From Chrysoporthe austroafricana (taxonomy: Eukaryota; Ascomycota; Sordariomycetes; Diaporthales; Cryphonectriaceae): a stretch of 64,000 nt of DNA. The notes under the pieces are model-generated. The model was not told the DNA's origin. It saw only the letters and a program-made list of their open reading frames with translations, and made no database searches. Below are positions 8,588 to 59,700 of this stretch, piece after piece. The DNA is taken from contig JYIP02000005.1 in assembly GCA_001051155.2 (NCBI GenBank), positions 868,001 through 932,000 on the forward strand. Reading direction: 5' to 3'. Within the stretch, counting starts at the first letter, position 1, and each line of letters starts with the position of its first letter. Made by a program: the position numbers and the translations under genes.

Positions 8588-9702
8588 GTTTTTTTTTTTT
8601 TGAGAACGGCACCCCAGACCTTGTCACGCTACGCTTACTGACGAGCAGTGGCTGTCGGCGTCTCGAGATGCAGATGGCCTGAGCCCGACCTGGAGGTTAG
8701 TTAATTCAGCGGTCGAGGGCGTCTGACCCCGCACGCCAGATCGGCATGCTAAGGGGATACCTCGAGACATTGTGCACCGAGCGAGGTAAGAAGACGCATC
8801 TCAGTCTTGATTCGTTCTCGTTCTCGTGCTGGTCGAGGGGGACGAGCATTCGGCCATACTAATGAGCGTCGGGGCAAGTGATAAGAAACCTACCGACCCC
8901 CCCTCAGCCTCGGATGATTACTGGGAGCCCGACATCCAGCCTCCTCAGACGTCTGTCTATATGCATGGTAATTATACAATACACTCGCGAGTCTCAGCTG
9001 CTTGCCGAGGGGGAAGGCTCTTGGAGTTTCTATTACCCTCAACCGGCACTCGACACGGGTGGCCTTTGGCCCGCAGCCACGCACGTCTGGTCTGACCTGA
9101 CCTGACCTGAGGATAGTCCCGTCCTGCGCGGCCCAAGCAGACGGCTGGATCCGCTCACTTACTTACCACGTGCTTACATTCGAGGAGCCGGGGCTAAACA
9201 GGACCCCTATTTCGACGAGCGCCAATCCAGCCGACTGGTTCTCTCGGATAGCTCGGCGGCCAGCGTAGCGCTCATGGGCAAGCGTCTAACGCGTCTCCCG
9301 CGTCTCATGGGCTGAGGGCCGCGACGGTGACGTTTGGGACTCGCGTCACCCCGCCGCAGGATGGCGAGCGAGAGGGGGGGGCCGAGCACTGGGTGCGAAT
9401 GCGTGTCAGGCACCCCCGGGAACGGAGCGGAGATAAAGCCCAACGCGCCAGAGATTGCGCAGCCCGGCAGAGTATCGGATTTCTAAGCGCTCGACGGTAG
9501 GTTTTGTGTGTAGGTTTTGCTGTAAACGTTCCGTATGTCAAGTGAAGACGACGTTTCCCACGCCGGGCCGCTGTCCTCCCTCACGAGAGATCCCGTATCC
9601 TGGGCTCTAGCATAGACAGGCTCTTTTCTTGTTCTTCTTCCTCTTTGCATCCAGACACCAGAGGCCCAGAGCCTCGGGACGCAGACCTCATCGCGATCGA
9701 CC
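8588..9702. other. Divergent intergenic region (SDR / carrier)
   Basis: Shared upstream region of two divergent genes. A T-run (about 13 bases) lies right next to the SDR start at 8588-8600. Three tandem CTGAC units occur at about 9092-9108. No gene-like frame was recognised. Confidence 0.5.
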
Positions 9703-11136
9703 ATGTCTCCCGCCGCGGCTGCCACGGAAGCCGGCGCTGGGACGCCGCCGAAGACGCCGCCACGGTCGCCGAGCCGGTCCTCGGCGCGCTCCTCGCCGGC
9801 GCGCTCCTCGCCGCCGGCAGCCACCGAAGAGACGCCGCTTCTCGCCTCCCAGGCCGAGGAGGGCCGCGACGAGCATGAACAGGCTGCCCTGCTCGCGCCG
9901 CCGCAGAGCGAAGCCCGGCGCACGAAGAGCTGGTGGTTCTGGCGGGTCCTGTGGGCCGTGCTGGCGGCCCTGCTGCTCGCCGTCTTCATCAAGGGCTGGG
10001 TGGACGCGAAGGACGTCGACGTGAGTATCCGGCGCCGGCGTGCTACGCTACAGGGCAGGCCTGTCCCCGCGGCGCTGACACGGCTGCACAGTTCGACCTG
10101 AAAGGCGCCCTGATGAAGGCGCTCGGCGGCGGCCTGAGCGGTGCCGCCGCGATGCTGCTGCAGGTCCTCCTCCTGATGGTACGTACGCCCCCCCAAGGCC
10201 GGTCCTACGGGACTATGCTTGCTTGACTGATGACTGATGCTGCGTACCTAGTGGATCCGTACGATCATGAACTACCAGTACCGCCACGGCAGCTCCCTCA
10301 CCGCGGCCACCAAGACGTTGTACGCCGAGGGCGGCATCCGCCGCTTCTACCAGGGCACGGGCTGGGCCCTGATCCAGGGACCGGTCTCGCGCTTCGGCGA
10401 CACCGCGGCCAACGCCGGCATCCTGGCCCTGCTCCAGTCCAACGGCTACCTGAGCAAGCTGCCCACCGTCATCCAGACCATCTTCGCGTCGCTGTGGTGA
10501 GTGAGACAGTCCCCTCCCCCTTCGGCCGCCGCCGCCCTGCCGGCCCTACCGTGCGTACATCACGTTAGGAGATGGCGAGCGACTGACACACGAGACACCA
10601 CAAGCGCCGCCGGCTTCCGCATGATCCTCACCCCCATCGACACCCTCAAGACCACCATGCAGGCCCAGGGCGCACGCGGCACCGCCCTGCTCCGGAGGCG
10701 CGTCAAGGAGAACGGCATCGGCAGCCTGTGGTGGGGTGCCTTCGCCACGGCGGCCGCCACCTTTGTGGGACACTACCCCTGGTTTGCAACGGTGCGTCTG
10801 TCTGTCTGGGCCCGGCCTTTCTTCTTCTTCTTTTTTTTCCCCTCCCTCCCCTGTGAGACACCTGAAGGCTGACGGCGGCACGCGGCGCGAGCAGTACAAC
10901 TTCCTGACGGAGGCCATCGCGGAGCCGCCGAAGCACCCGCTCATCGTCTGGCTCGCCCGCCTCGCCCTCATCGGCTTCTGCGCCTCGGTCGTCTCCGACT
11001 CGGTCTCGAACTCGCTGCGGGTCGTCAAGACATACCGCCAGGTGAACGACACCAAGGTCTCATACAGTACGTGGCGCCTATTGTGGCACCCCCCCAGGAA
11101 CCCTTCCCCCCTCCTCCCCTGCTGTGTGTCTTTGTA

Positions 11137-11176
<40 letters not shown>

Positions 11177-11422
11177 GGCACGGTGTGACGGTGCTGACCC
11201 GCGTCGTGTGTACAGCCGAGGCTGCCCGGCTGGTCGTCCTGCAGGACGGCATCCTCGGCCTGTTTGGCCGCGGCCTCAAGACGCGCATCATTGCCAACGG
11301 CCTGCAGGGTATCTTGTTCTCCATACTGTGGAAGCTCTTCCTCGACCTGTGAGTAGTTCTGTTCAGCTCGGGTAGGCATAACGTGCTGACATCCCGCGAG
11401 GTGGGACAGCAAGACGTCCTGA
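9703..11422 (+). CDS. Mitochondrial-carrier-family (SLC25-like) membrane protein
   Basis: Six-helix carrier-type protein with a long non-carrier N-terminus. Model: join(9703-10020, 10092-10178, 10252-10496, 10605-10791, 10895-11066, 11216-11348, 11410-11422), 384 aa, exactly in frame. Residues 1-70 are Pro/Ser/Ala-rich and disordered. A hydrophobic helix follows (WWFWRVLWAVLAALLLAVF), then carrier-like repeats: EGGIRRFYQGTGWALIQGP, the signature PIDTLK (P-x-D-x-x-K), NGIGSLWWG, and LQDGILGLFGRGLKTRI. The first and third signatures are degenerate. The last exon (LKTS) rests on a good GTGAGT/CTGAC/ACAG intron; otherwise the protein stops at 11352. The extra N-terminal helix makes a location other than the mitochondrial inner membrane possible. 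Substrate cannot be read from the sequence. Confidence 0.8.
11141..11175. repeat. (TG)n microsatellite inside an intron
   Basis: About 17 uninterrupted TG dinucleotides inside the fifth intron (11067-11215) of the carrier gene. It lies between the donor and the CTGAC branch region and is likely length-polymorphic. Confidence 0.95.
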
Positions 11423-11796
11423 GAGGAGAACGGGCCAGGCTCGCCAGACCTCCTCCGACGGGAGACACGAGCGTGGCCTGCACGGTCTGGATCGAGTCGA
11501 CAGATGAACCGTCAACCGCGACCAACATTACAACCGGAAGTGTGTACCGTTATTCACTACACCCGCAAAGAAGAAATTGTTCAGGGATATAGATGGGCAG
11601 TAGAATACTGGCTGGTGTTTCATTAAAGAGTGATTAGTTGCTTTTTGTGCACATACTTGCCTGGGAATCGTACATATTGAGCCCCAGCAATCAAGGCCCC
11701 TTGGTCAATCTCCCGCTTTCTCCTATCGATTTCTCCTAGTTCCACAGGGGCTTCACATCGTACGCACAGCTGGAGGTCATCATCCTCTGATGTGGA
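11423..11796. other. Convergent intergenic spacer
   Basis: Spacer between the tail-to-tail carrier and aldehyde dehydrogenase genes. It presumably contains both 3' UTRs. No frame with recognisable motifs. Confidence 0.5.
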
Positions 11797-13362
11797 CTAG
11801 TAATGATCCTGAAGGGTCAAGGTCCCGGTCTTCGCAATCAGATATTCGTTCACCGCAACGTCCTTGCCGCTTTCTTTCCCGAGACCGCTCTCTTTGACAC
11901 CGCCAAACGGCGACTCGGCTGCCGACGAATTTCCAGTGTTCTTGTACAATTTTGCGTCAGTTCAGGTTGCGACTGGACACGGTGGGACGCTGCTGGGACT
12001 TACCAGGCCGATCATGCCAGCCTCCAGCCTCTCGAACATCCTCCAGAGGCAGTCCACGTTCTTGGTGAACACGTAGCTTGCCAGGCCCATACTAGTATCA
12101 TTGGCCTTCTTGACGGCGTCATCCTCCGTGTCGAACTTGAACACGCCCAACACAGGGGCGAACATCTCTTCCCTGGCCAGCTCCATGTCATCCGTGATGC
12201 CAGTGAGGATCGTGGGCGCCATGAAGTAGCCCGTCGCCCCATTCGCGCCGCCCCCCTCGCGCTTGCCCGTGCCCATGACGACCTTCGCGCCCTTGGACAC
12301 GGCGTCCTGGTGCAGGTGCTCCGCCTTATCCAGACCCCGGGGCGTCGTCACGGGGCCCATGGTCGTGCCCTCCTTGATCCCGTGCCCGACCTTCAGCTGC
12401 CTGGTCCGGCTCGCGAGCAGCTCCACGAACCTGTCGTGGACCCCGGCCTGCACGTACACCCGGTTCGCCGAGATGCACGCCTGGCCGGCGTGCCGCCACT
12501 TGAGCGCCATGAGCTGGCCGAGGGCCTGCTCCAGGTCGGCGTCGTCGAACACGACGAAGGGGCAGTTCCCGCCGAGCTCGAGCGTCACCTTCTTGAGGTT
12601 CCGCGCGCACAGGCCCGAGATGATCTTGCCGACCCGCGTGCTGCCCGTGAAGGTGACCTTCTTCACCAGCGGGTGCAGGCACAGCGCCTCAGCCACGGGC
12701 GGCGTGTTCTCGAGGCTGGTGGTCAGCACGTTGAGGGCGCCGGGGGGGAAGCCGGCGCGGGCCGCCAGGTTGGCGAGGCACAGCGTCGTGATGGGCGTCT
12801 CGGGGCTCGGCTTGACGACCATGGTGCAACCCGCGGCGAGGGCGGCGCCCGCCTTGCGCAGGACCATGGCGATGGGGAAGTTCCAGGGGCACAGGGCGGC
12901 GGCGACGCCGATGGGCTGCTTGACGACGAGCACGCGGCGCCCCGGCGCGGCGGGCGCGTAGACGGAGCCCTGGATGCGGTCCGCCTCGCCCGAGAACCAC
13001 CACGTGAACCCCGTCGCGTAGTCCAGCTCGCCGTACGCCTCGGCCAGCGGCTTGCCCGTCTCGTAGACGAGGATATGCGCGAGGTCGTCGCGCGCCGCGA
13101 CGATGAGCTCGTGCCACCGCATGAGGAGCTGCGCGCGCCGCCGCGGCGTGTACCGCGAGTACGCCAGGAACGCCTCGTGCGCCGACCGCACCGCCGCGTC
13201 GACGTCCTCGGCCTGGCTGTCCGCGCACGACGTCCACACACTGCCGGTGCCCGGGTCCTCCACGTCGAAGCGCTTGTTGGCCTTCGTCCCGGCCCAGCCC
13301 CCGTGGACGAAGCACTGGGGGGTGAAGAGGTCCTTGTCTGTGAGCTCGAAGGGGAGTTCCAT
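11797..13362 (-). CDS. Aldehyde dehydrogenase, succinate-semialdehyde type
   Basis: NAD(P)+-dependent aldehyde dehydrogenase, most like the succinate-semialdehyde dehydrogenase (GABA shunt) branch. Model: complement(join(11797-11940, 12004-13362)), 500 aa, the usual family length. General base Glu262 lies in LELGGNC and catalytic Cys296 in GQACISANR; their 34-residue spacing is the canonical ALDH value. CPWNFP, VVKPSPETP and FTGSTRVGK are the expected cofactor-site motifs. The single 63-bp intron (GTAAGT...AAG) joins EAGMIGL to NTGNSSAAESPFGGVKESG, the conserved C-terminal loop. Without splicing the frame would end in an unrelated tail. Third codon positions are strongly GC-rich. It oxidises an aldehyde to an acid in cytosol or mitochondria. 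Exact substrate is inferred only from family resemblance. Confidence 0.92.
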
Positions 13363-37956: not shown

Positions 37957-39724
37957 ATGTTCTCGCCACAAGTCCTCATTGTCGGTGCCGGTCCCGTGGG
38001 CCTCACCATGGCGCTGGCTCTCCACCAGGCCGGTGTTCCGGCCCCCGCCATCCTCGTCGCAGACAAGCGGCCCTCGCGCGACCTCATCAACGACTGGTCC
38101 AAGGCTTTGGTAGGTCCATCACAAACCTCTTCCTTCCCCATCCCTTTGATCAGATACAATCCTTGTTGGGAGTTACGGAGGGCTTCTGTGTAGCGTACTC
38201 TTAGTTGTGTTCCACCTCCGAATCAGCTCACATGATCATGTAGGCACATGGAAAGACTCTGAAGCAAGCAGATACTGAACGCTTGTGGTGTTTTAGAACT
38301 TCAGCGCCAGCTCTTTCGAGGTCTTCCGCAGCCTCGGCATCGCGGAGCGATTCCTTGCCTGTGGAATCCCCATTCCTCGTAACCACTTTGGCGGGGCATC
38401 GCGATACCTGGATCTCAATTACGATGTGCTGGGGACGAAGTACCCTTTCAACTGTTCGTTGCCGCAGTCGAAGACAGAAGAGCTACTGCTGCAGCGGTGT
38501 GAAGAGGTCGGAATCCCGTTCGCATGGGGCCAGGAGTTTGTAGGCCTGGAGCAGGAAGCAGATGCGGTCACTGCGACTTTCCAGAGACAGGACGGGGAGG
38601 TAGAGACTATCAAAGCCTCATGGCTGGTTGGCTGCGACGGTGCGCGCAGTCCCGTCCGCGAAGCGGCTCACATTACCTCGGAGAGAAGCAAGGCCACCCG
38701 CTATGGCTGGCTAGCGGACTGCACTGTACAGCAGGATACACCGCCACTGCGCACCGCTATAGTTAAGGAGGAAAAGGCGCTCATATTCATGATTGGGCCG
38801 CGCATGGCCCGATTCATAGGGCTGTTCCCACCTACACAATACGCTGATGGCCAGAGACCGAGCGTGCCAAGCAAGGACTTTATTGTGAAGTGGGCGAAGA
38901 GGGTGCTCGGCACCGACTATGGGCTGAAGGAGATAAAGTGGGCGTCCGTGACGGGAAACGGCATGGGCCACGCTGACACATACCGCTCCGACCGGGTGTT
39001 CCTAGTGGGGGATTCAGCGCATCAGCTATTTCCTGCTGGAGGACAAGGGATGAATGCTGGTCTCGCCGATGCGACGAATCTGGCGTGGAAGCTTGCGATG
39101 GTGGTGACCGACAGGATCTCGAGCCCGGACGTGGTCGCCCGCGTCCTGGATAGCTACACACGGGAGCGCAGGCCCGCTGTTGAGGCCGTGATGCGAAACG
39201 TGGAGGTTCAGATGCTCGTGTTCTTCTCGACCATCGACAAGGAGCAGGCCGTGTCAGAATTCATCCTGGAGGCGCTTGAACAGCCAGCGTTCAATAAAAT
39301 GTGGGCGCGACGCGTCACGGGGTTTGACGATCCGACCGGACCATATCAGCTGAACCCAGATAGCGCGCAGATTGGACATCAGACAGTCGGATCTCGGTTA
39401 ACGCATATTGCAGATTCACATGAGCATGACCTACTCGAGGCGTCGATGCAGAACATCTTCGTCCTCGCGTTCCTGGCCGGAGCGAGCTGCACTCCTGGTG
39501 ACAAAGACGCACTCAAGACGAGTGTCTTGTCTACCCCTTACAGAACCAGCGTCAAGGTGCTCGAGAAGGATATTGAGCCAGTTGGCGACAAATGGAAAGG
39601 TGTCCAGGCACTTCTCATTCGTCCCGACTTGAGGGTGGCTTGGGTTGCCCCGGAAGGAAGCAAAACGCAGGACAATAAGAGCTCGCTGGTGGATACTCTG
39701 TCATGGTGGCTTGGAGACATGTAA
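37957..39724 (+). CDS. FAD-dependent monooxygenase, phenol-hydroxylase-like
   Basis: Class A aromatic hydroxylase of the phenol 2-monooxygenase/TetX-type branch. Model: join(37957-38109, 38297-39724), 526 aa. Dinucleotide motif VGAGPVG lies at residues 9-15, DG motif in LVGCDGARSPVR, and GD motif in VFLVGDSAHQLFPAGGQGMNAGLADATNLAWK, all intact. A C-terminal thioredoxin-like domain (from about residue 400; ending with RPDLRVAWVAPEG) is normal for this branch. The 187-bp intron uses GTAGGT and TTTTAG and joins DWSKAL to NFSASSFEVFRSLGIAERFL. Translation from 37846 would add 37 residues not seen in the family. It would use NAD(P)H and O2 on an aromatic or polyketide-like substrate; no polyketide synthase is in the window. 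Confidence 0.88.
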
Positions 39725-40864: not shown

Positions 40865-42603
40865 CTGTGCTCAGTCAGCTTGCAGACCGTGGCGTCAAAC
40901 GAAATACTGTCAGCTGGCTTGCCTCTTGAGGTGTCTCAAGCGGGAGCAACGCAGAAAATGCCAGCCTCGCTCTAGCGTACACACGCCTGAAAACCGAATG
41001 CATGACGTGTTGGTTGCTCGAAAGCTCAATCTATTCGAAGGTAGTGTTTGTTGTTGTGGCGTCCAGGACGACGAGGGAATCACCGGTGTGCCTACGTGTT
41101 TTTGGAGCTATGACAAGCCCAATGATGCAATTTATTGTCTGTTTTGAGGGTTAGGAGTGTTGCCCGGGCCACTAGCGGCAACAACACGCGGCTCTCATAC
41201 TTTTTGGCTCTTGTTCCTCTCAAATTACACGTGCCCCAGAGTCGGAAAGATAATTACGAGATGCTACTTACACAGTCAGCCATGAGATGCCGGTAGAAAT
41301 GCCGTAGTAGATCCTAGAGATATAACGAGAATAGTTCAAGAAGTTTAATATCCTGCGATGGGTGTCATAGGCCGGTGTAGGAGAGCAGATACCCGTGGAA
41401 TAATGATGGTGAGTGCAGGTAGATAGAGGGTGGGATAGAGAGGTATGACGGGAAAGGGATGGAGCTAAGGATGGACAGTATGACCAAAGGTTCACGATTA
41501 AAATTAAATAATACAAATTGCGACATCCTGTACACAAATGAGCTATATGATAGACGCTTCAATAGGCTAGAATGAAATATTCAAGGATTCCAAGGAATGC
41601 ACTCGAGTCCAAAGCTCTCCACTTCGTATGTATTATTTGTGATAGTAAGGCTATGGCATCTACATTGGGATCATTGAGCCAGATTCGCTGATAGACAACT
41701 TGTAATGCCAACTGAACGTGACTGTCTTCAGCAGGGCTTCATGAGATGGCAAGCAAGGCACTTCCTAACATCAGGTCAAAGCATGCCTACAATACATAAT
41801 GATTCCTAGATAGTTCTGCTAATCTCGCAAGTACTTTGAAACCTCGGCTCCAGTGCTAGTACTAAACATACAGCAGTGTAGATATGAGAAATTGACGCAC
41901 GACAGTGACCACAGGTAACATCATGGGAATCTCATTCTACGCTCGTCGGCAGTGAGCCAGAGCACGGTCGAGTTTTCAAAAGGAGCCATGTCGACACGGC
42001 CGTATCGTTGACAATAAAGTAAATGTAATTTTCAAACGAGGAAAAGGTCAGGGGAAGTTTGAGACAGTGTAACTGAACAGCAAAGCTGGAGGTCACCTCA
42101 CACCACACCATGCGTCTCTACATTATTTGTTCAATCTGCACCTTGGTAACACAGCGAGGGGCCTCTGCCGCCTGCGTGTTGCGCCACTGATTATCGTATC
42201 ACTCTGCGCGGGAATCTTACAATATACCGATCGTTGTGTGACTGCATGAAGCCGGAGGATAGTGATAGCATTCAAGCCATATTACGCAATCTATGCGAAG
42301 GTTGGGGGAAGGCTTGAATTGAGCCGAGAATTGCGATACGTTGGCAACATCGATTGGCCATAATTCTCGAAACTGAAGCCACACCGACAGTGCAGGTCGT
42401 ACTTTCTCCTCAGGGCCGGTTGCACGTTCAAGATGATGTTGTTGAAAGAGGGGTAAATAGATGGACATGCTTGAGACATGTCTGTTTCCGGTCAAGCAGG
42501 CAAAAGGAAGGGGGGGGGTGGCACTGAAGGGCGTTAAGTATATAAAGCCCCATAGTCGTATGTAGACAGCTGTATGAAAGCGAAAGTGCAACAGCAAGAC
42601 ATC
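40865..42603. other. Intergenic upstream of the peroxidase-radical enzyme gene
   Basis: 1.7 kb containing, at its left edge, the probable 5' exon(s) of the 2EXR gene and, at its right edge, the promoter of the fusion gene. A G-run lies at about 42511-42518. No independent coding frame is supported; the long minus-strand frame starting at 43356 is a shadow of the fusion gene. Confidence 0.5.
42539..42546 (+). promoter_or_regulatory. TATA box of the DyP-radical enzyme gene
   Basis: TATATAAA, 28 bases before an in-frame ATG at 42574 and 58 before the ATG at 42604. The first ATG would leave almost no leader and has T at -3. The second has A at -3 and G at +4, so I favour 42604. Confidence 0.5.
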
Positions 42604-45600
42604 ATGGCATTGGACAAAACCCTGCTGGGTGCCCAAAAGGGCCTCTTCACGAAACCAGTCTTTGGTCAGCTCTTGACAATCAAGTTGAAACAGCAAGATG
42701 ATAAAATGCACACGGCCATTACCGGGTTGATTACTGACCTGGACAATACCATCATCACTAAGCATCCTGATTGCGGTCTTGTTGTTGCCTTCTCTCCTGC
42801 GCTCTGGGGCAAATGGACAGGTCGCGATATTCCAATCCGCACCAAGGTCCTCGACGGGAAGCACAGTGACACTCGGAAATTTCGGAACACCGGAGGAGAT
42901 GTGCTTCTCTATTTCAAAGCACCGAGTCACGCTAAGGCCGACGAGATTGTGGCAAAAGTCCTCCCAGATCTTGAGCCTCTGGTAGGGTCCGGACAAATTG
43001 ACATCACTATTGGTGGCAAGCGTTCCGACAGTCGTGTCATCGGGGGCCGCTACGTGGATGGCATCACCAATCCGAATGACCCAGTCACACTCGTCGAAGA
43101 CATTCTCATTCGTGACGGTCCTTATCCCGGAGCCTGTTTCGCCCTCAGCCAAAAGTTCGAGTTCGATTGGGGCGGTATTGCGTCTCAGACGGCAGACGCC
43201 CAGGATGAGATGATCGGCCGGAACGTGGACGGCGCCGTCCTGTCGCAGCATGGCCTGCGTGGGCATGTTCATCGGGCGGGCAACGTGCGAGATGCGAACG
43301 GTGACCAGAAAAAGATTCTGAGACAAGCTATGCCCTACGGAACATCTGGCGGGCACTCTGCGCGTGAAGAGGGCGTCATGTTTGTGGCCTACTGCAACGA
43401 TCAGGAACGCTTTGAGAAGCTACTCAAGCACCTGATTGGAAAGCATGCCGGGCACGCTGCGGACCGTCTGCTGTCGACTGTTCAGGGCATTGGCGGCAGC
43501 TATTGGTACGTCCCAGCAGCAGCTGAGCTGGGCATTACTGCTCTGTCGAGCCTCAAGGACATCTACGAGGAGGATCACTGGGCCGTCAGAAGTAACAACG
43601 GCTATCTGTTCTACAACTCGCAGGACTATCTACACCAAATGGGCCAGCGTTTTTACGTCGGTGGGGATCCTCCTAGTGACCGCATCCTTGGTCTGATGGC
43701 GAGAGCATTCAATCATTGGCGTGACGGATGGCTGCACCGACAGAATTTCCCTCGGCTGCCTCATCTGAAGACCTTACTCGACCCCAAAGACAAGGAGATC
43801 CTTCGAGGCCACGAGAAAGATGTAGCATTGCGCAAAGCGCTCGCGAATACTCACACTTTGGCATCTCTTCTCTCTTCACCAGACTCTTCGATCGCCAAGG
43901 AGAACAATCTTCTGCGCATTCAGCCCAGGGAGCTCATTGTCGGACAGATCCCAGATTTCACCCTTGGACGCGGCAAGGAGATTGTGCCCTATTTGGACAA
44001 AGACGAGGAACTCGCGTTCTGGCTAAAGAATGGGCTGAACGAGTTCGCTTCAATGGGGCACATCGTGCCCGACTATGATCTATTGGTCAAGAAAGGCGTG
44101 CAGGGGCTCATTGACGACCTTCAAAGCCGTCGCGAAAGCAAGGCCGGTGATGACACGCAGTCTACGTTCTTCAGAGCCTCAATCATCTCGATGCATGCTG
44201 TTCAGTCATACCTGGAGAACTGGGCGCTGAACTGCGACAGGGCAGCTCAGTTGCCCGGACTAGCCCCCGATGATGTACAGAACATGCAGGATATCGCGGC
44301 ACGCCTGCGACGTCTTGTGGATCATCCGCCTGAGAGCTTCCAGGACGCGGTCCAGCTGATCTTCTCATTCCACTGCTGCCTGCATCTCGTAGGAGAGCTC
44401 ACTTCTTTCTGCCGTCTGGACCAAATTCTATGGCCCTTCTGGCAGCGTGAAAAGGACCTGTCAACGGAGCAGGCCCAGGACATCATCGACTGTCTTTTCA
44501 TCAAGATTGGAGAGAATGCCTTCATTGACCGCGCTTTCATCTACGACTATTGCAACGTAGGCACATGTGCGGTGTGTGGGATCGGTGGCAACTTTCCTCA
44601 GGGTGGCGGTATCAACCAGTGGGTACAACAAATCACCGTGGGCGGATACAAGGCTACTGATGATGAAAAGCCTGAGGGCGGGGCGAACCCGGTCACGATG
44701 CTCTTCCTGAAAGCCGCACGACGCATCCCTGTCAACGCTCCCACCGTATCGCTACGCACCTACAAGGACATTCCAGAAGAGTTTCTGGACGAGGCAGCAA
44801 AGTGTCTCCTGTCAGGCGGTGCGCAGCCGATGCTCTACAACGACGACAAGCTCTGCCAAGGTCTATTGGACTCCGGAAGCACTGTCACGCGAGCATGGTC
44901 GAGGAACTATGCCGCAGATGGCTGCTATGAGCCCATGTTCGCTGGTGCGAACGATTTTACCTTTGCAAGTGTCGGCCTGATGCAGGCGCTGGAGCAGACT
45001 CTCAACCAAGGGTCGACCTATGCCGCCGCTGGGCCGATATACCTCCGGGGAATGAAGCAGACATTCCGTTCCCCGCCCGCTAAGGACATCAATACTTTCG
45101 AGCAATTACAAGAGGTCTTTGTGGAGCAGCTGGAGTGGCTCGTAGTACAGTGCTACAATGTCATGCTCAGCAACTATGGCAATCTTGTCAGCGTCTGCCC
45201 TAGTCCTCTACTGTCGGTAGTCATCGATGGTTGCGTGGAGAAGGGACGAGATTTGACTGATGGAGGTGGCCGCTTTCACGTTATTGCGCCAATGTGTATG
45301 GGCGTATCGAACACAATTGACTCTCTGTTCGCTATCAAGAAGCTGGTCTACGATTCAGAGACCGCAGTCACGACGCTGAAGGAATTGGTTCGCTGCCTGA
45401 TGAATGACTGGGGATTCAACATGGTCGAGCCGTTCCAAGATCAGCTCTTGTACGTGTTTGAAAGGATATTCTTCTCTTCTTGGCCGTTCTAGGGTTAAAC
45501 CCCCTTTTATACCTCGACGCCTACGGGGTCTTAATTAAGTCTCTCTAGACGCCTCCTTTTATATTTCTTAGCGCCCAAACAGTCAAGATGCTAACATCAC

Positions 45601-46516
45601 GTTTGATAGGGGGCCTGCCGACGCTGCGGAGCATGGTCTGCGATTCCAACAACTACGAGATGTTGCTCTGGCCCTACCTAAGTGGGGCGGTGGTGATCCA
45701 GAGGTTAATGCCCTTGGCGAATGGCTTATGGACCATCTCGTCAGGCTGTGCGTAGGTGTTATGGACAAGGACAATCCCTCCCCTGCGCTCAAGCCCCAGC
45801 TTGATGCAATCAAGGAGCGCTACAAGAATGACGCCGGGGGGTTCGAGTTCGTGGTCACGCCTGGCATCGGGACGTTTGAGGGCTATGTCGGTGACGGAGC
45901 AGCATGCGGCGCATCAGCCGATGGACGGCGCAGCGGCACGCCCCTCGCCTCAGATATGTCGCCGGCACCTGCGCCTCAAGACCAGTTTCCCCCGAACCCG
46001 CGCTTCCGAAACATCTACCAGGCGATGAAGAGCGTCAAGGGCCATGCAGCCGAGTATGGACTTTCCAATGCAACTCCGGTCGATATGGTACGTATCTCCC
46101 AATTGTTCACTTCTAGGGCGTTCAAGAGCCAAGGATCATGCGTACTAATAGAGTACATGCGACCTGGCATTGGATAACGCACTCGGCCTCTGGATGTAGC
46201 TACAAGCTAATCCTCTCCCTGTCTTGTGTATTTCCAAACCATCTGGCTTAGCTTTCTAACGTCCACACAGAATATCGAAGAGTCATTCCCCCTGGAAGAG
46301 TTACAAAAGTTCGTCAAGGCTTATGCCGCTGGTGATGTCGGTGGAAACTTGATCTCGCTTACATGCGCTGATCCCTCTACTTACGCGGCTGCTTCGAAGG
46401 ATCCTGAGAAGTACAATCTAGTCCGTGTAAGGATGGGAGGCTGGTCTGAGTTCTACGCCACTATGTTTCCCGAGCATCAGAAACAGCAACAGAGAAGGCA
46501 GTACTTCACACCTTGA
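42604..46516 (+). CDS. DyP-type peroxidase fused to a glycyl radical enzyme
   Basis: Model: join(42604-45449, 45610-46087, 46271-46516), 1189 aa. Residues ~1-390 form a P-class (YfeX-like) dye-decolorising haem peroxidase: Asp152 in YVDGITNP, His223 in GHVHR as the likely proximal haem ligand, Arg240 in ILRQAMPYG. The 71- and 17-residue spacings fit YfeX. From ~440 (ELIVGQIPDF) a complete glycyl radical enzyme follows: NAPTVSLRTYKDIPEEFL, QPMLYNDDKL, thiyl Cys774 with Glu776 in AADGCYEP, and the radical loop RMGGWSEFY with Gly1165 near the C-terminus. C-x-E marks an eliminase/decarboxylase-like member, not pyruvate formate-lyase (adjacent cysteines). Intron 1 (160 bp) joins FQDQLL to GPADAAEHG; intron 2 (183 bp) joins ATPVDM to NIEESFP. 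An intact start at 42574 is possible. No radical-SAM activase is in this window. Substrate unknown; bacterial ancestry is inferred. Confidence 0.9.
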
Positions 46517-47171: not shown

Positions 47172-49291
47172 ATGGGCAACAGACGCCCGGGACAACCGGC
47201 GCCTTACGGTCAGGCCTGCATGCAGTGCTTCAAATCGAAATGCAAATGCATTTTGCGGGACAATCCGGAAATATGTGAGAGGTACGTACTTCAGTCTCAT
47301 TCAGTCGCATTTTTCTTCCGAAACTACCCTTCGCCGAAATGCTCACGTGCGATGATCCAGATGCCACCGACTTGGCCAGCAGTGCATTCCATCGGATGCG
47401 ATTCGTCGTCGCAAAGCTCAGAGAAGCCAGAAGTCCGGTCCCAAGATTGCGCAACTTGAACGAAGGGTCGAATGCATCATTTCGTCGCTACAGAATGCCG
47501 CGGAGTCTCCCGATCCCGTGGAATTAGTGCAGACTGCTCTGCAACGTGAGATCCACGCCAGAAGATTTGATGCAATGTCTGATGTGCAAGACCCAGCAAT
47601 CGCCAACATCCCAAGCACGATATTCAGAGATTTTGCAGCGTCAACACCAATGAAACCTGCCTCGAACGACCATGCCGGCAGGACGCAGCCGGAGCGAATG
47701 AGGATAGCGTCGGTTTCTTGTCTCGGTGCCAAATCCCTTAGAAACATCAGCAATGCTCTTGAGCTTCCAGATCTTGAGAAACAAGCCTGCTTAGCGTTGT
47801 TCCGCGAGAAGCTGCTCCCTGACTGCCCTTTTCTCCATCTTCCTCAGGAGACTTCGATAGAGATCCTTGGCAGGGACCGGCCATTCTTGCTGCTAGCTAT
47901 CTTCACGGTAGCCACGCCCGCCACGCAGACAAAACTCACGAGAGGGAAAGAGTTGAAACGCATCCTAGTCCAGGAGTTGATCCTAGAAAATCATTCTAGT
48001 ATCGACCTGTTGCTGGCTCTTTTGACATTCGTCGCATGGAGTCATGATACACATCTCAACAATAAGAGCATCTCTCGTCTCCTAAATCTCGCCGTGTCCG
48101 TCGTTTACGAACTTGGTCTACATGATCCAAACCAGAAGTTGACACATCAGCTTCTGAATCATCCTGGTTTTGAAAAACATGATTTTTGCACCGACAACCC
48201 TGGATCCTCCAGGGATCACAATGGTGAACTTCTCGAACAAAGCCGAGCGGTCCTTGGCTGCTTTATGCTAAGCGCTTCGTGGGTCTTCAGCTTCTTTAAC
48301 ATAATGTAATTTGCCGTCGTTGTACTAAGAAAGCTAATACGATATGCTCTGTTCTGGTAGGGTCTCCGCATATTACAAACAGATGGAACCTTTGCCCTGG
48401 ACGCCACATTTAGAGGAGTGCCTTCAGCGTATCGAGTCATGCGCTGCAACCCCTTCAGATGCAGTGCTGGCAGTACAGGTCCGTCTCGAGCTCCTCACGC
48501 AGAAGGTGCATGACCTACGCGGGCATCAAGGCCTTTTGTCTCCGCCGTTGATATTCTACCGCGACGCGTTACGTAAACAGCTTCGTCAAATCGAGATGTC
48601 TATAACAGCAAGCATGGTGCAAGCCGGTAAGACGGGGTAGCTCAAGTTTAACAAAGTGCCCTTCGACTGACTTCTGGGACCAAAAGATCTCCTTCGGGCT
48701 CAAGGTCGCTATGTAGAGCTCTGTATCTGCGATGCTACGACAGAATCTTTCCAGCACGCTATAGCAGCGAACGGCGTGCCCAGCACAGAGCTCTTGGAGT
48801 CTCTTTGGCAGTCGGTAATGGCTGTTAAATCCTGCTTTGAAATTTGGCTATCCATCTCACCATCTGCTTGGGTCGGTCTCTCCATCCAGCACCTTCTCCA
48901 AGTGGGTCGATCCCTTGTGACACTCTTTAAGTTGTCCACGCTCGACGACCCAGTGTGGGACGCTGAAGCCGCACGAAAAAGCCTTGATGTGATGTCAATC
49001 ATGGATGGAATCATCAGAGTTTCCGGCCAAGCAAGTTCGGACGCCGGAGAAACTGCTGAGGATGACTTGTTCAAGGTTTTGGAACGTAATTTGGTGAAAT
49101 TTCGTGAAGGTTTGCTGGCAAGCATCAACTCACACAAGGATATTGTCAGCAGTGACACGTCACAAGTTCGAACGGCAGAGCTTCCTAGGAATCGCGTTCT
49201 TTATCCTAAGACGCTATTCACTATGCCTGCTTACGGCTTCTTCGGGACGGGTGAGTGGATGGAGCAAATATTTGACAACGAACTTTGCTGA
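47172..49291 (+). CDS. Zn2Cys6 fungal transcription factor
   Basis: Model: join(47172-47281, 47361-48305, 48361-48626, 48687-49291), 641 aa, exactly in frame. Binuclear zinc cluster cysteines are 16, 19, 26, 35, 38 and 45 (ACMQC, KCKC, NPEIC, ERCHRLGQQC), with one extra Cys24. Intron 1 (79 bp) lies between the fourth and fifth cysteines. A linker and coiled coil follow (KIAQLERRVECIISSLQ). The middle homology region runs through LLPDCPFLHLP, TFVAWSHD, LLNLAVSVVYELGLH and, after intron 2, WTPHLEECLQ...AVQVRLELL. Introns 2 and 3 (55 and 60 bp) restore conserved helices; unspliced frames stop at once. Same orientation as, and 655 bp downstream of, the DyP-glycyl radical enzyme gene, so a regulatory link is plausible but unproven. 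Confidence 0.9.
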
Positions 49292-54280: not shown

Positions 54281-56704
54281 CTATGAATCTCCTCGCTGTT
54301 TCCTCCTATACGTCCCATCGATAGTATAGTCTTTTTGCGGACCCTTTACCGTATATCCAAGCCTCCAGTCCCTCAGGTTCACGGCATTGAACCTGAACTC
54401 ATACTTGACATCGTAGAAGTCCTCAACGCAGAGGTGGCCCGCCTTAGCCTCCCACCCTTTGGTGATATCTTTCCGGGTGATGTAGTTCTCTGGGACTATG
54501 AAGTCCAGCTCGTGAAACAAATAATCTGCCTTCATTTGTTCTTCATCTCTGCGCGGATCCTTCCGACTGAACTTGTCGCCCGTCCGCACGAACCAGACAC
54601 TCAACTTGTCCGTCTTCTCATCATATCGCCAGATGTACCGCCGCGTCGCCGGGAAGGCGACGCCGGTTGTAGTCTTAAATTCGCCCTCTTCGATGTATAG
54701 ATACTCTAGGCCGGGATCATCGTCACCTTGGCCGCCACTGACACTAGTTTCAGCGTCGCCATCGACGCATTTGAGACCGTCTTTCGTCCCTTGACGCAGG
54801 AGGAACTTCGCTGTTCCGCTCCAGTGACCGCTCGGGTGACTAGGAAGTTTGGAGATGAGGTCTCTCTCGAGTTGCCATTCGCCCAGCAGTGAGCGGAAGA
54901 CGGCCTTCGCCACAAATTTTGCGTTCGTCAAGCAGGAGATCACAGTCTCTTTGACCTGCATGAGTGACTTCTGCATCTCGGACATCTGCGCAGGTGTCAA
55001 CATCCCATGCGAAGGATATCGTGCCGGTGTGAGAATGTCCATGGGCCTTCCATTATGCGGCAACGGCGGTGTGTCGTCAGCTGAAAGAAGCATAAAGATG
55101 TGTAAAGCGGCCGCAAAATCTTTCATCAAGTAGATATAGTCACCCATGGGAAACTGCGAAGCGCGAGGGTCCCCACGGAGCGCTGCAAAGCGTTGAATAG
55201 AAGTATCATTAGCGAGAGCAGTCTGCATGTAGGGAAGCCTTCCACGAGAACTGGATTGTGTCTCGCTCGTTGGTGTGACATGCATTCGTTCGGAGCGGGC
55301 CTCGAGCAGCTGGCCGTGCTCTTGCTGCGTCCAGAGCTCAGTCAAGAAGCGCGCTTGCATCTCCATTACGCCCCAGTACGGACTACGGTAGAAGCCAACG
55401 AAGCCGAGATGGGGCACATCCGGATGATGTGTGCCGTGGAACCCAAGGAGGACTGTGTTCTCAATGTCCGTAGGATCTAGCGCGAGGATGCGTTGGATCT
55501 CGTCTGGAAGGAAGGACAATGAGGATGCCGCCTCGAAGCCAGTGGCAAGCACGATGGCTGCAACATCGGTGACGGTCGTGGGTTCTGGGCCTGGAGAGGC
55601 GGGTGCGATTGTGGCTGTGGTACCGGCAAGAGACCCAAGCTTGCCCTTTGAGAGAGTAATCAAACCCGAGCGCACGAATTCTGTGTACCAGTCGCTGACG
55701 GCGAGATAGGCAGGTTCCTCGATGTCTGCTTCGGAGGGAGCGAGCAGAGGCGAGTACTCGGATTGATCTGTGCCGAGTGCCGCTTGGAAAAGGCTTTTGG
55801 TGATCTTAGCATTGTCGACGGTGATGTGGCCTTGGGTATTTGTGATTGGCATTGGTCGGTTGGCCAAGTTGTAGGATGAAAAGTCAAGAGGTACGAAAGG
55901 TGGAGCAAACCGGCCTGGTGCCGGTGAGGTGAAGAGTGGAAATACCCAAATCGGTCTCTGGATGATATGATGGATGGTGTACTTGTCTGCACCGGAGAGC
56001 TTGCCTTGCCCGGGTGCATTGACAACGGACGATAGATGAGATGCGATGGTCCCGGCGATCTCAACGCCTGACATCTGACCACCCACAACGAGAATCTTGC
56101 CCCCTTTCCCATCTGCATTCGGTAGCAGCGTTTCCAGGTCCCTGTAGCGGCTGCTGTGGACAGCTGGTATCCCCCCGGCCTCCTGCAGCCCAGGCACTTC
56201 GGGAATGACTGGCTGTCCAAAGAACCCGGACGCAATGAGGAGGTAGTCGTACTCGCTCTCGTCCACGAGCCCGTCTTCGGATCTGGCAGTGACAAGCCAC
56301 GTCCTGCTGTCCTTATTGCCACGCGGGGTGGCCCTTTCAACCTTCCATCCCAACCTCAGCCGGAACCTCGCTTCCTCGAACGCGCAGTACGTCCTCAGGT
56401 ACTTCTGCAGATATGTCCCTACCTGCCAGGCCCTCGGCAGCTGCGGCGCATCATCTTCCCAAGCCAGATCACTGAACTGCATGGTATGCCTGCTCTGGTT
56501 TGCCACCATGAGCGGGTTCACCAGTCCAGCATCGTCTGTCTTCTCCAACGGCCAGAGGCCACCGATCCGGGGCTTCTCGTCAAACACGGTGACGGAGAAG
56601 TCGGAGCTGGGGCCTAGAGCGGAGGGCCGGGGGTGAAGCAGTTCCTTAGCGGCGACCAGCCCGGACGGCCCGGCGCCAATTATGCAGACTGTCTTCCGCG
56701 CCAT
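54281..56704 (-). CDS. Flavin-containing monooxygenase fused to a DUF6314 domain
   Basis: Intronless 807-aa protein. I start it at the ATG at 56704 (MARKTVCIIGAGPSG), because the upstream extension begins at a non-ATG codon. FAD motif GAGPSG lies at residues ~9-14, VFDEKPRIGGLW follows, a second nucleotide motif is VVGGQMSGVEIAG (GGxMSG instead of GxGxSG), and the ATG motif is AIVLATGFEA. This is the FMO/class B pattern, though the FMO fingerprint around HSSRYRD is weak. From about residue 610 (LLGEWQLERDL) to the end is a lipocalin-like DUF6314 domain with WSGTAKFLLR, EGEF and DGTYRR. FMO-like enzymes add oxygen from NADPH and O2 to N, S or carbonyl substrates; DUF6314 is uncharacterised and often sits beside redox enzymes. 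Moderate GC, unlike the left-hand genes. Confidence 0.88.
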   Translation of the reverse strand: MARKTVCIIGAGPSGLVAAKELLHPRPSALGPSSDFSVTVFDEKPRIGGLWPLEKTDDAGLVNPLMVANQSRHTMQFSDLAWEDDAPQLPRAWQVGTYLQKYLRTYCAFEEARFRLRLGWKVERATPRGNKDSRTWLVTARSEDGLVDESEYDYLLIASGFFGQPVIPEVPGLQEAGGIPAVHSSRYRDLETLLPNADGKGGKILVVGGQMSGVEIAGTIASHLSSVVNAPGQGKLSGADKYTIHHIIQRPIWVFPLFTSPAPGRFAPPFVPLDFSSYNLANRPMPITNTQGHITVDNAKITKSLFQAALGTDQSEYSPLLAPSEADIEEPAYLAVSDWYTEFVRSGLITLSKGKLGSLAGTTATIAPASPGPEPTTVTDVAAIVLATGFEAASSLSFLPDEIQRILALDPTDIENTVLLGFHGTHHPDVPHLGFVGFYRSPYWGVMEMQARFLTELWTQQEHGQLLEARSERMHVTPTSETQSSSRGRLPYMQTALANDTSIQRFAALRGDPRASQFPMGDYIYLMKDFAAALHIFMLLSADDTPPLPHNGRPMDILTPARYPSHGMLTPAQMSEMQKSLMQVKETVISCLTNAKFVAKAVFRSLLGEWQLERDLISKLPSHPSGHWSGTAKFLLRQGTKDGLKCVDGDAETSVSGGQGDDDPGLEYLYIEEGEFKTTTGVAFPATRRYIWRYDEKTDKLSVWFVRTGDKFSRKDPRRDEEQMKADYLFHELDFIVPENYITRKDITKGWEAKAGHLCVEDFYDVKYEFRFNAVNLRDWRLGYTVKGPQKDYTIDGTYRRKQRGDS

Positions 56705-59700
56705 GGCCACGAGCAGCCTGAGGTATTCGGGGGACAGATGCCTCGACGAGACGTGCCTGTGAGACGATGACAGCTGGATCAGTGTCACGGTTGGCGTTCT
56801 GACCGACGGTAGTCGGCAGAGTGATGCAGTGCCAGGTGTCCCACGGGATGCTCAGCTCGAGATTCTCTCAACTCAGTAAGACGGGGGATTCTGCACCCAG
56901 AAGACAGCCAAGAGTGGTCGGAACGCCGGCTTAAATTGTCTCAATCATAAGATTTCAGCCGGAGTTAGTCGACGCTGCCCAGCACTTTAAAGAGGTCCGG
57001 CTTGGGTCTTGTGGGGCTGCATGCCTTATATAAGCCATGCCTCATGAACCAGTGAGCAACGACAGAGTATGCTTAGTCATGTCCCCTGGCAACCTCTCTT
57101 CATCATCTTTGCAAAAGCCTTCCCTCACTTTGCCTGCTTCTTCTCTTTCCAAGCTTCAGCATCGCTTGCAGAGGAGTCGGATGCGTCCTGCCCAATGCAT
57201 TTGCACCATCAGAGAGGCGGTCTGCACCTGTCAGCTGCAGTCATGGGCGCCCAACAAGACAAGGAGAGAGCATCACGGCCTTAGTCCAGGAACACGCAGC
57301 TTTTGTCTCAGGTAGCCGACGCTATGCTGAGTGACATTGCAGCCACTTACTGCCTAGGTACTGTGTAATACTGACAAATCCATCACTCCATACTTCAATT
57401 TGACCCACACCGATGACCCTCGGACTGATGACCTACTCAGGGTGGCTGGTATTATCTCTTGGGCAATCCTCTTGGGCAACGGCATGTCGCACTGCCATCG
57501 GTGATGGAGCTCACAGCGTTCCCGTGCTTGCCATAGCTTTGGGCTGGACAAGTTTCGATTCCAATTGGCAATCCAAAAGAGTACATCCTTTTCCAGGGAA
57601 GGCCTCAGCTGATAGTGAACCGTCAGGAGATTGGTCCCGCCAGGATCACATGCAGCACACCTCCTCATCCCAGCCCGCAACTTCCGCACCGGACGGCAAA
57701 GTCGCACAGAAATTGTCACCCAGCACAGCCAATCCTGGATGGGGTTGTGACTCGTGATACCATTTGCTGTAGTGGTTCCTGCGATTATGCTGCTAGCCAA
57801 AGTCGACGCAGCTTGCTTTGTGACCTCATCCCAACGACGCAACTGCTGCCTCTGTGGGATCCTCTACCGCTCTCTATGGTATTGCTTCCGATATCACGGT
57901 TTTCTAGTTCTTAGTTCATCTGACTGGCCTAGATTTCATTTCTCATCCTGTTCAATGCCATCTACATGCGGAATGCCGTGCTTCTCGGTCTTTCAAAAGT
58001 CAGTCGCGCGCGCCTGCGCCCACGTCGTGAATCGTGGAGTCGAATCGGGGGCCGACATTCGAGCATGTTTTCAACTTACCGAATGAAAGCGTATACGAGT
58101 GGTCGGAATCTACAAATTCGGAAGGGCTTCCTTATTCCTTATTGTCAGTCCAGGCCGCCAGTTGCTATATGGTCTGGTCTACCTACCCTAGGTCGTGGCA
58201 TCACAGCGAATCGGCACTATCCTGCAGTGAGATCCTGCTACGGCTTAACTCTCCCATCGATTGGAGTGCTGTCGATGTCAAATTAGGGCGTATTGGCGCG
58301 ATCCCATCCGAAGTTACGGGCGTCGACCACGGGCCAGCAGCACGCCAAGTCTTAATGTGGCGTCGTAAGCGGCAATTCCGCGCACAGATCAATGGTGCCC
58401 ACGGGTAGCTGCAGCATGCCCACGCGCCTTGGGTTGCACGCGACCACGGGTACGTGCGTCTCGGAAAATCTCTTGAATTTCCGTAGCCGCCGACGGTGAA
58501 TATTGCCAGCCAGTTGCTAGATTCGTATCGTTCGTCAGTGGTCTGATTCACGTGGGACTCCGAGGGATGGCGACTCTTGACCGTGCCTGCACCGGTTCTC
58601 GGCATAAGGACTGGTCTATCCTTGTTCGAGAAGCAAGGGCGCAGAAGATCGTGTGGCGGCAGCTCATCGCTTCGGAAACCAGACAGGCTACGTGACCACA
58701 GCATGCCTCCTGGGGCACACCTCGCGAGAAGACAGTTGTTTCTGTTGGGTGATCCCTTTGCAACCACGGCGCTGTCTTCGGGTATGGCTAAGTCCGATAA
58801 AATTGACCGAGAGATTCTCTCATTACACAGCAGCAGGTTCTCCTCGCCTTGCGACCCATGGCGACGTGAGTCCTCGCCCTAACAATAACACGATCTGCTG
58901 AGCTCGACTCACCATCACACCGCGTCAGGCTGACTGGCACCAGCAATTCGGACGTCCTACCGCAGTCTGAACCTAGCTTGCGCTCCGCAACGTATCGCCG
59001 ATTCCCAGCAGACGCGACCACATTCTGTGGTAGCTGTGGCTGCTGTCCCCTATGACTACTGCGTGTTACTGCTGCGGATAGATCTCGCGTCGGTCTAGTG
59101 CCTCTGACCGTATGCTGACAAGCCATGACATATTAGCCTTGGATGCAGTAGAACGGGACGTTGGCGGCACAGCACAGGCGACATTTTCAAGCAAATTCAG
59201 CCGCAAGTGCAGGCAGATGAAGGGTGGCACCGGGCGGAACATACACAGACGCAGTCGATCCCGGAGGCTAGCCAGCTCTGGCGACCCGATGGCCCCTTCA
59301 GCTCTGATTCGAACCGCGCCGGCGATCCTCGAAGACGAGGCCTTGAATTATGCATGGCCAGAGACGCCGTGGAGCTGTCCTGAAAGCAATCCGGAGTATC
59401 CACATGTCGGCATGTCAAGTTGCCGGTAGAAAAGAGCCTCATCCACGAATCCGCCGGCAGTTATCAGTGCGGGGAAATTAACCACTCGTTTCTTTGGCAC
59501 AGCAAGCCACAGTCCAAGCCCACGATGATTTGAGTTCCGAGTTGCATCGACTTTAGACCAATCGAGGCCTGCCAGACCTGGGACTTGGGCTCCCCGCACG
59601 GGTATCGGCGAACCTCAGGTGAGCTGTTGACGATCATGGTTCGATATTCTGTTCTTCGCGTCTTCTCGAAGCTTCCCAAATTAATCATCGTGGATGATCT

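Follow-up and report, generated by a model that had tools for sequence, protein, structure and literature searches.

A DyP peroxidase fused to a glycyl radical enzyme in an ascomycete, and whether the peroxidase could supply the radical

Glycyl radical enzymes (GREs) perform some of biology's hardest bond cleavages. They need a radical-SAM activase for their radical, usually encoded by an adjacent gene, and are deemed bound to anoxic life by that activase and by O2, which destroys glycyl radicals. The window, a stretch of 64,000 nucleotides from the ascomycete Chrysoporthe austroafricana, codes for a GRE fused to a DyP-type haem peroxidase. What does the peroxidase do for the radical?

The gene and its two catalytic halves

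The gene encodes a whole DyP domain and a whole GRE in three exons (Table 1). This agrees with the preliminary description of the locus, which had a DyP-GRE fusion in a fungal gene with an uninterrupted 2.8-kb exon and two introns; exon 1 covers both halves. An alternative in-frame Met at 42574 would add 10 amino acids. Because TATATAAA is found at 42539 and the orthologue P0002 begins at the same Met as 42604, we prefer the latter as the start. Cryphonectria parasitica EP155 has the closest protein among the matches listed; it agrees with the window's protein at 1074 of 1190 aligned positions and is continuous across both splice joins.

Table 1. Positions in the window of the DyP-GRE gene, its domains, and its active-site residues
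Feature	Position	Strand	Remarks
Whole coding gene	42604..46516	+	3 exons, 2 introns, 1189 aa from Met at 42604
Exon 1	42604..45449	+	no break across DyP domain, connector, and most of GRE
Intron 1	45450..45609	+	GT-AG; join confirmed by orthologue
Exon 2	45610..46087	+	splice joins checked against orthologue
Intron 2	46088..46270	+	GT-AG; join confirmed by orthologue
Exon 3	46271..46516	+	holds radical-glycine loop; stop codon 46514-46516
DyP haem peroxidase domain	42625..43536	+	residues 8-311
Connector, 40 residues	43537..43656	+	residues 312-351; conservation almost that of GRE domain
GRE domain	43657..46513	+	residues 352-1189; both introns inside
Distal haem Asp152 (GxxDG motif)	43057..43059	+	D in 54/61 rows, E in 4/61, H in 3/61
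Proximal haem ligand His221	43264..43266	+	61/61 rows
Distal haem Arg240	43321..43323	+	58/61 rows; G in 3
Catalytic Cys774 and Glu776 (DGCYEP)	44923..44931	+	C and E in 62/62 rows
Radical Gly1165 (RVRMGGWSE), then Trp1166	46439..46441	+	G and W in 62/62 rows

Conservation was read from an alignment (A2) of 62 chosen rows, 43 of them from the 120 listed protein matches and 19 from the 27 bacterial fusion loci described below, with the frame-broken L016, L025, and L027 left out. The haem His and the Cys, Glu, and Gly of the GRE are invariant in this alignment, and conservation is higher across the GRE domain than across the DyP domain. The distal haem pocket is variable, with D152H and R240G occurring together in three of 61 rows and D152E in four. 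Among the listed matches of at least 1000 amino acids, 109 of 110 keep DGC[YF]EP and 108 of 110 keep VRxGGW. The preliminary description had named Asp152, Arg240, Cys774, Glu776, and Gly1165 correctly as key residues that are kept; the proximal His is residue 221 and not 223.

With a DyP fold and the haem Asp, proximal His, and Arg, the N-terminal half belongs to the DyP-type peroxidases and its peroxidase function is predicted. The other half has the GRE barrel fold, the catalytic Cys in a GCxE motif, and the radical Gly near the C-terminus, and is a GRE for which a radical is predicted. Pfam found the DyP and PFL-like halves as had been anticipated, though not Gly_radical (PF01228), which was without a match in the window's protein at E ≤ 0.001 and absent from a six-frame search of the window's genome (48 Mb, 22 contigs). 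This missing match concerns the profile, not the residue, as the loop motif is present.

The fold type of the GRE is that of glycerol/diol dehydratase, choline lyase, and PflD, and it is placed in no characterised subfamily. Of the NCBIfam subfamilies tried (PFL, PFL2-3, CutC, HypD, HPDL, sulfopropanediol dehydratase, and indoleacetate decarboxylase), the best gave 204.9 bits against a cut-off of 678.2. Ordinary GREs such as glycerol dehydratase (1r8w), propanediol dehydratase (9rcp), CutC (5fau), and PflD (8yjo) use a radical-SAM activase, whereas the GRE of the window is fused to a DyP, has no adjacent activase, and falls far below the matched NCBIfam cut-offs. DtpB, YfeX, DyPB, and the Vibrio cholerae DyP were solved as separate proteins, unlike the DyP of the window, which is the N-terminal part of a protein with a GRE. 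We considered whether a Trp following the radical Gly distinguishes DyP-linked GREs and rejected this, as the activase-linked L066 and L067 also have GGW.

Relatives of the fusion and a recurring partnership

A protein search returned 241 matches; the best 120 were listed, 110 of them at least 1000 amino acids long. Many Sordariomycetes, lichen fungi, and bacteria are among the hosts of the matches listed, and more than 100 listed proteins of similar length carry both Pfam domains, including products of uninterrupted bacterial genes. A scan of genome contigs found 27 bacterial fusion loci in the Pseudomonadota, Myxococcota, Bacteroidota, Planctomycetota, Gemmatimonadota, Acidobacteriota, and Actinomycetota. 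The listed protein matches add the Chloroflexota. The listing of organisms with the same domain order, which the preliminary description had proposed, holds many fungi and eight bacterial phyla in all, and the fusion is not a peculiarity of one fungus. Its spread is patchy: when 399 genomes of a single order were sampled, 4 had a match at E ≤ 1e-50. Viral contigs held one locus, L051 (the same as L063), and the phage collection had no record covering 80% of the query.

The hosts of the fusion are mostly aerobes, which we counted for the DyP as activator of the GRE. One host, Candidatus Scalindua, is an anaerobe, and we counted it against that role.

That the gene is an annotation or assembly artefact, or two transcripts, can hardly be right. 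The gene was read from DNA alone and Gly_radical is unmatched in it, but the 2.8-kb exon spans both halves and the two-domain proteins listed include uninterrupted bacterial genes. An artefact is refuted in practice by this conservation, and a one-off or an assembly join was likewise rejected given one exon over both halves and the many fungal and bacterial homologues.

The tree unites its four fungal rows in a single clade (SH-aLRT 99) that adjoins six proteobacterial rows, from five betaproteobacteria and Pseudomonas cichorii. These ten rows have a joint SH-aLRT of 100 and are nested inside a bacterial clade. The fungal fusion gene is of bacterial origin, and its position in the tree fits the transfer between bacteria and ascomycetes stated in the consulted portions of PMC5041501. 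Those portions report transfer between proteobacteria and ascomycetes, describe the DyP_B-PFL fusion (dyprx) in Chaetomium cochliodes in 2016, call its significance 'elusive', and cite Strittmatter 2014 for the fusion in other genomes. The preliminary description's statement that no system of this kind had been described therefore does not hold. The window gene, with the same architecture and in an ascomycete clade beside proteobacteria, is a member of the DyP_B-PFL group as it appears in those portions. As far as they go, PMC5041501 assumes a radical-SAM activase; our analysis adds the survey of activases and the repeated pairing with DyPs. It was the sole paper on the fusion that we found in the open-licence literature, which is mostly without subscription papers and preprints. 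In that same literature we did not find the missing activase, the clade of standalone GREs with DyPs, the second fusion, or the idea of activation by the peroxidase, so that while the fusion itself was already known, these four are apparently new.

The sister clade of the fusions consists of standalone GREs of about 850 amino acids with the motifs kept in the rows aligned. Their N-termini fall within the connector region of the fusions (residues 312-351). Hosts among the matches listed are Hymenobacter, Rhizobium, Ensifer, Mesorhizobium, Flavobacterium, Pyrinomonadaceae, and others. Both members with readable surroundings have a separate DyP gene directly downstream. On a Hymenobacter cellulosilyticus plasmid (L053) the DyP lies 11 bp downstream of the GRE; the annotation there shows the GRE as two PFL fragments and the DyP as a short one. 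In an Acidobacteria MAG (L064) the GRE is at 9212-11875 and the DyP, 39 bp downstream, at 11918-13246. The make-up of these downstream DyPs is different, Dyp_perox_N plus C.

A second type of fusion, from one genome only, is encoded at L068 from a Bacteroidota sample. In this 1303-aa protein a DyP_N-type DyP (PF21105) is fused to a different GRE, which shares 27% identity with the window-type GRE and 36% over 848 columns with the GRE of L067. The latter is without a DyP and has an adjacent activase (184 bits). L068 groups with L067 (SH-aLRT 100), and the AU test rejects a single clade of all DyP-linked GREs (p = 1.3e-7), the group tested having been chosen after inspection of an earlier tree and long branches being present among the ordinary GREs. 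More probably, GREs became linked to DyPs on at least two occasions, the DyP in L068 standing where the activase stands in L067. One old DyP link, later lost in the L067 line, would also fit.

No common operon partner was found, and immediate neighbours differ between loci. Some neighbours are phosphoester-hydrolase-like, an apparent leaning that hints at a catabolic setting. A motif in a recurrent 420-aa neighbour resembles that of histidine phosphatases, an identity that we set aside: the two members scanned had no Pfam match, there was no significant PDB match, and the model was poor (pLDDT 50.3).

Activases at the loci and in the host genomes

To count activases beside GREs, we searched all stop-to-stop frames of at least 120 amino acids at the loci for similarity to four activases, taking E < 1e-15 as positive. 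An activase lies within about 3 kb of the GRE at all 12 ordinary loci and at none of the 34 DyP-linked loci. The Fisher p of 2.6e-11 for this difference is descriptive, as the loci are not independent. Conversely, a DyP is found at 33 of the 34 DyP-linked loci and at none of the 12 ordinary ones; the exception, L022, ends at the contig edge, with its DyP half beyond the contig. Two loci are short, L019 at 4.8 kb and L022 at 4.3 kb. One weak activase match at L015 (4.6e-8), nearly 9 kb from the fusion, was counted as none. The ordinary set is small, made up of four genes from fusion genomes, three non-DyP matches, and five of 19 plasmid matches, one of which (H6) had an activase already named in the list of matches. 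Four of the 12 activase-positive loci (L065, L067, L072, and L078) hold the query activases themselves while the other eight do not, and the DyP comparison likewise used queries that come from three of its loci, L001, L064, and L068.

We also surveyed the 27 bacterial fusion genomes. A PFL-like gene is present in each, and three of them, G001, G002, and G015, also yielded ordinary GREs; the other 24 yielded none. The GRE-activase model TIGR02494 (cut-off 174 bits) is exceeded in one genome, G015. G001 and G002 have split matches below the cut-off (127-128 bits) near their ordinary PFL, and the best listed match in each of the other 24 is at most 51 bits. NrdG2 (TIGR02495), the activase of the anaerobic ribonucleotide reductase, is over its cut-off in three genomes (G001, G005, and G006), and G018 and G021 each have an NrdG-like protein that is assigned to neither model. 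With only the best candidates scored, 22 of the 27 genomes are without a clear member of either activase model. The 4Fe-4S family Fer4_12 (PF13353) matches in all 27, and its profile also matches many radical-SAM proteins; it was rejected as uninformative for an activase census. Because Fer4_12 matches occur in every one of these genomes, an unlinked, unrecognised activase may be encoded in them.

The genome of the window has seven Radical_SAM matches; those that share its contig lie about 3.6 Mb off, and the others are on different contigs. By reading, they are probably MoaA, LipA, BioB, TYW1, Elp3 (a match with no CxxxCxxC frame), a lysine-aminomutase-like protein, and a protein (L033) that we presume to be PflX-like. 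The last scores at best 32 bits against the activase models. Its homologues are clear in two of the 27 bacterial fusion genomes, with a third match marginal (6e-4). Among fungi, it is present in Neurospora, Trichoderma, Colletotrichum, and Diaporthe, which are not named among the 120 best fusion matches listed, many rows of which are nameless. Coniella, Fusarium, Xylaria, and others are named with both the PflX-like protein and the fusion among the matches listed. As a dedicated activase the PflX-like protein is disfavoured, given its weak model score, the two of 27 genomes, and the fungi without a listed fusion. A putative PFL activase is reported in Chaetomium cochliodes and taken as the partner of the fusion in the consulted portions of PMC5041501.

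A possible role for the peroxidase as radical generator

The preliminary description was right to ask how the peroxidase serves the radical. Its three suggestions, that the DyP protects the radical, consumes peroxide, or carries out a second step on the same substrate, may hold; none of them predicts the pattern seen, with the activase missing and DyPs paired with GREs in two separate regions of the tree. The simplest account of the conserved GRE and haem sites, the recurring partnership, and the missing activase is that the DyP is the source of the radical, and we give an even chance to a self-activating GRE in which a peroxide-fed DyP makes it. The DyP haem domain would react with H2O2 or an organic peroxide to form compound I or a protein Tyr or Trp radical. 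The oxidizing equivalent would then cross the interface to the glycyl loop at Gly1165, or pass directly to Cys774, carried by a Tyr/Trp radical or by direct proton-coupled oxidation, and the resulting Cys774 thiyl radical would attack the substrate. The peroxidase would thereby take the place of the radical-SAM activase, which is sensitive to oxygen, and in the presence of peroxide a fungus or bacterium living aerobically could run, or quickly restore, glycyl/thiyl radical chemistry.

Intact residue sets in one gene, the lack of an adjacent activase at the DyP-linked loci examined and of a clear activase in most of the fusion genomes, and pairing with two separate GRE groups speak for the DyP as activator. 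The haem pocket variants and the co-occurrence of the PflX-like protein with the fusion in fungi speak against it, and so does the apparent danger that making a glycyl radical in air with a strong oxidant would expose the glycine to cleavage by O2. The main rival, which we hold to be unlikely, is that the radical comes from a radical-SAM protein that is unlinked or goes unrecognised, and that the DyP clears nearby peroxide, which would let the enzyme persist in aerobic cells. The PflX-like gene in the window's genome and in other fungi named with the fusion is consistent with it, as are the Fer4_12 matches in all 27 fusion genomes. So is the induction of the Chaetomium gene, 3-fold by H2O2 and 18.5-fold by peroxyacetic acid according to the consulted portions of PMC5041501, although this induction fits a peroxide-driven enzyme and protection equally. 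Protection is at odds with the lack of an activase near all 34 DyP-linked loci, with the clear PflX-like homologue being confined to two bacterial fusion genomes, and with the 12 ordinary GRE loci having an activase and no DyP; nor is O2 removed by a peroxidase.

It is improbable that the two halves act in sequence, with the DyP oxidizing the substrate or product of the GRE, the fusion channelling the intermediate, and activation coming by another route. Both active sites are conserved in fusions of many phyla and the neighbours hint at catabolism, as this would have it, but the missing activase is left unexplained, and a generic service suits better the pairing of different DyP types with two GRE groups. 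Lower still do we rate a GRE half that has lost its radical function and acts as scaffold or regulator of the peroxidase. The want of a recognised activase in most host genomes and of a Gly_radical match in the window's protein would agree with such a loss; against it, all 62 rows retain the Cys, the Glu, and the radical Gly, nearly all listed matches of at least 1000 amino acids keep the two motifs, and the GRE domain is better conserved than the DyP.

The proposed activation by the DyP resembles the logic of class I ribonucleotide reductase, in which a remote metallocofactor fires a barrel cysteine, while class III uses a glycyl radical (consulted portions of PMC11551348). The likeness concerns only the proposed path from a metallocofactor unit over a long distance to the barrel cysteine, and we claim no membership. 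Haem and peroxide would stand in for the diiron-tyrosyl cofactor, and the barrel, with its glycine loop, is class III-like.

Somewhat short of an even chance is the wider proposal that a haem peroxidase, fused or adjacent, replaces the radical-SAM activase, that this arose more than once with different DyP types and crossed bacterial phyla into the ascomycetes, and that it allows GRE chemistry in aerobes. If true, it would account for the fusion, whose meaning was described as elusive in 2016. With an activator driven by peroxide, GREs would escape the rule that ties them to anoxia, in a parallel to how ribonucleotide reductases divide into class I and class III, and their chemistry would become available to aerobic hosts and to biotechnology.

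Variation in the distal haem pocket

Sequence alignment of the fusions of the DyP haem peroxidase with the glycyl radical enzyme (GRE) revealed seven with an altered distal haem pocket. The pocket Asp and Arg are replaced by His and Gly, respectively, in the fusions of three loci (L012, L015, and L017), and the Asp by Glu in those of four others (L019, L020, L021, and L023). The proximal His is retained in all seven.

Genes near the DyP-linked GREs

Phosphoester-hydrolase-like genes seem often to adjoin DyP-linked GREs or to lie close to them. They include a PF04185 phosphoesterase (L011 and L016), DUF2608 (L012, L013, and L024), an S1/P1 nuclease (L021), and phospholipase-D-like genes (L015 and L053, the latter the split GRE and DyP pair of Hymenobacter cellulosilyticus). 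HAD-like genes are found at L053 by annotation and at L064, an acidobacterial split pair, by motif only with no Pfam match. The group also takes in a secreted-looking protein of 420 aa with an RHVE motif, encoded at five loci (L001, L002, L014, L018, and L027). At L010, in a Saprospiraceae MAG, the fusion is immediately preceded by the gene for a small protein whose CATCH motif, judged by eye, is cytochrome-c-like; this protein may be an electron-transfer partner. In the window, the fusion has one monooxygenase-like ORF upstream and another downstream, and the gene nearer to it downstream is a possible local regulator.

Features near the fusions and in the host genome of the window
Feature	Coordinates	Position or remark
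FAD_binding_3 monooxygenase-like ORF	window 38297-39721	upstream of fusion
Gene with Zn2Cys6-like start (by eye)	window 47172-48309	~0.7 kb downstream of fusion; Fungal_trans match slightly under cut-off
FMO-like ORF with DUF6314 tail	window 54284-56851	downstream of fusion
CATCH-motif protein	L010:9400-9849
Lysine 2,3-aminomutase-like (KamA family) gene	G000:C18:4488866-4489363	L034
Mobile-element-like ORF	L051:9023-9586	close to fusion
Mobile-element-like ORF	L074:6907-8160	close to fusion

Radical-SAM proteins in the host genomes

A short NrdG-like radical-SAM protein with the motif QGCSIxCxxCVSxDTW is encoded in two genomes, G018 (L036) and G021 (L035), where it could be an unlinked activase. 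The fungal genome of the window codes for a lysine 2,3-aminomutase-like radical-SAM gene that scores under the family cut-offs.

Mobility and state of the loci

The reading frame of the fusion or pair is broken as deposited at L016, L025, L027, and L053, through either sequencing error or decay. One fusion (L052) and one split pair (L053) are plasmid-borne. By eye, the ORFs close to the fusion at L051 and L074 resemble a transposase of the IS3 type and a protein similar to TnpB. These ORFs and the plasmid locations are in line with a patchy, mobile spread.
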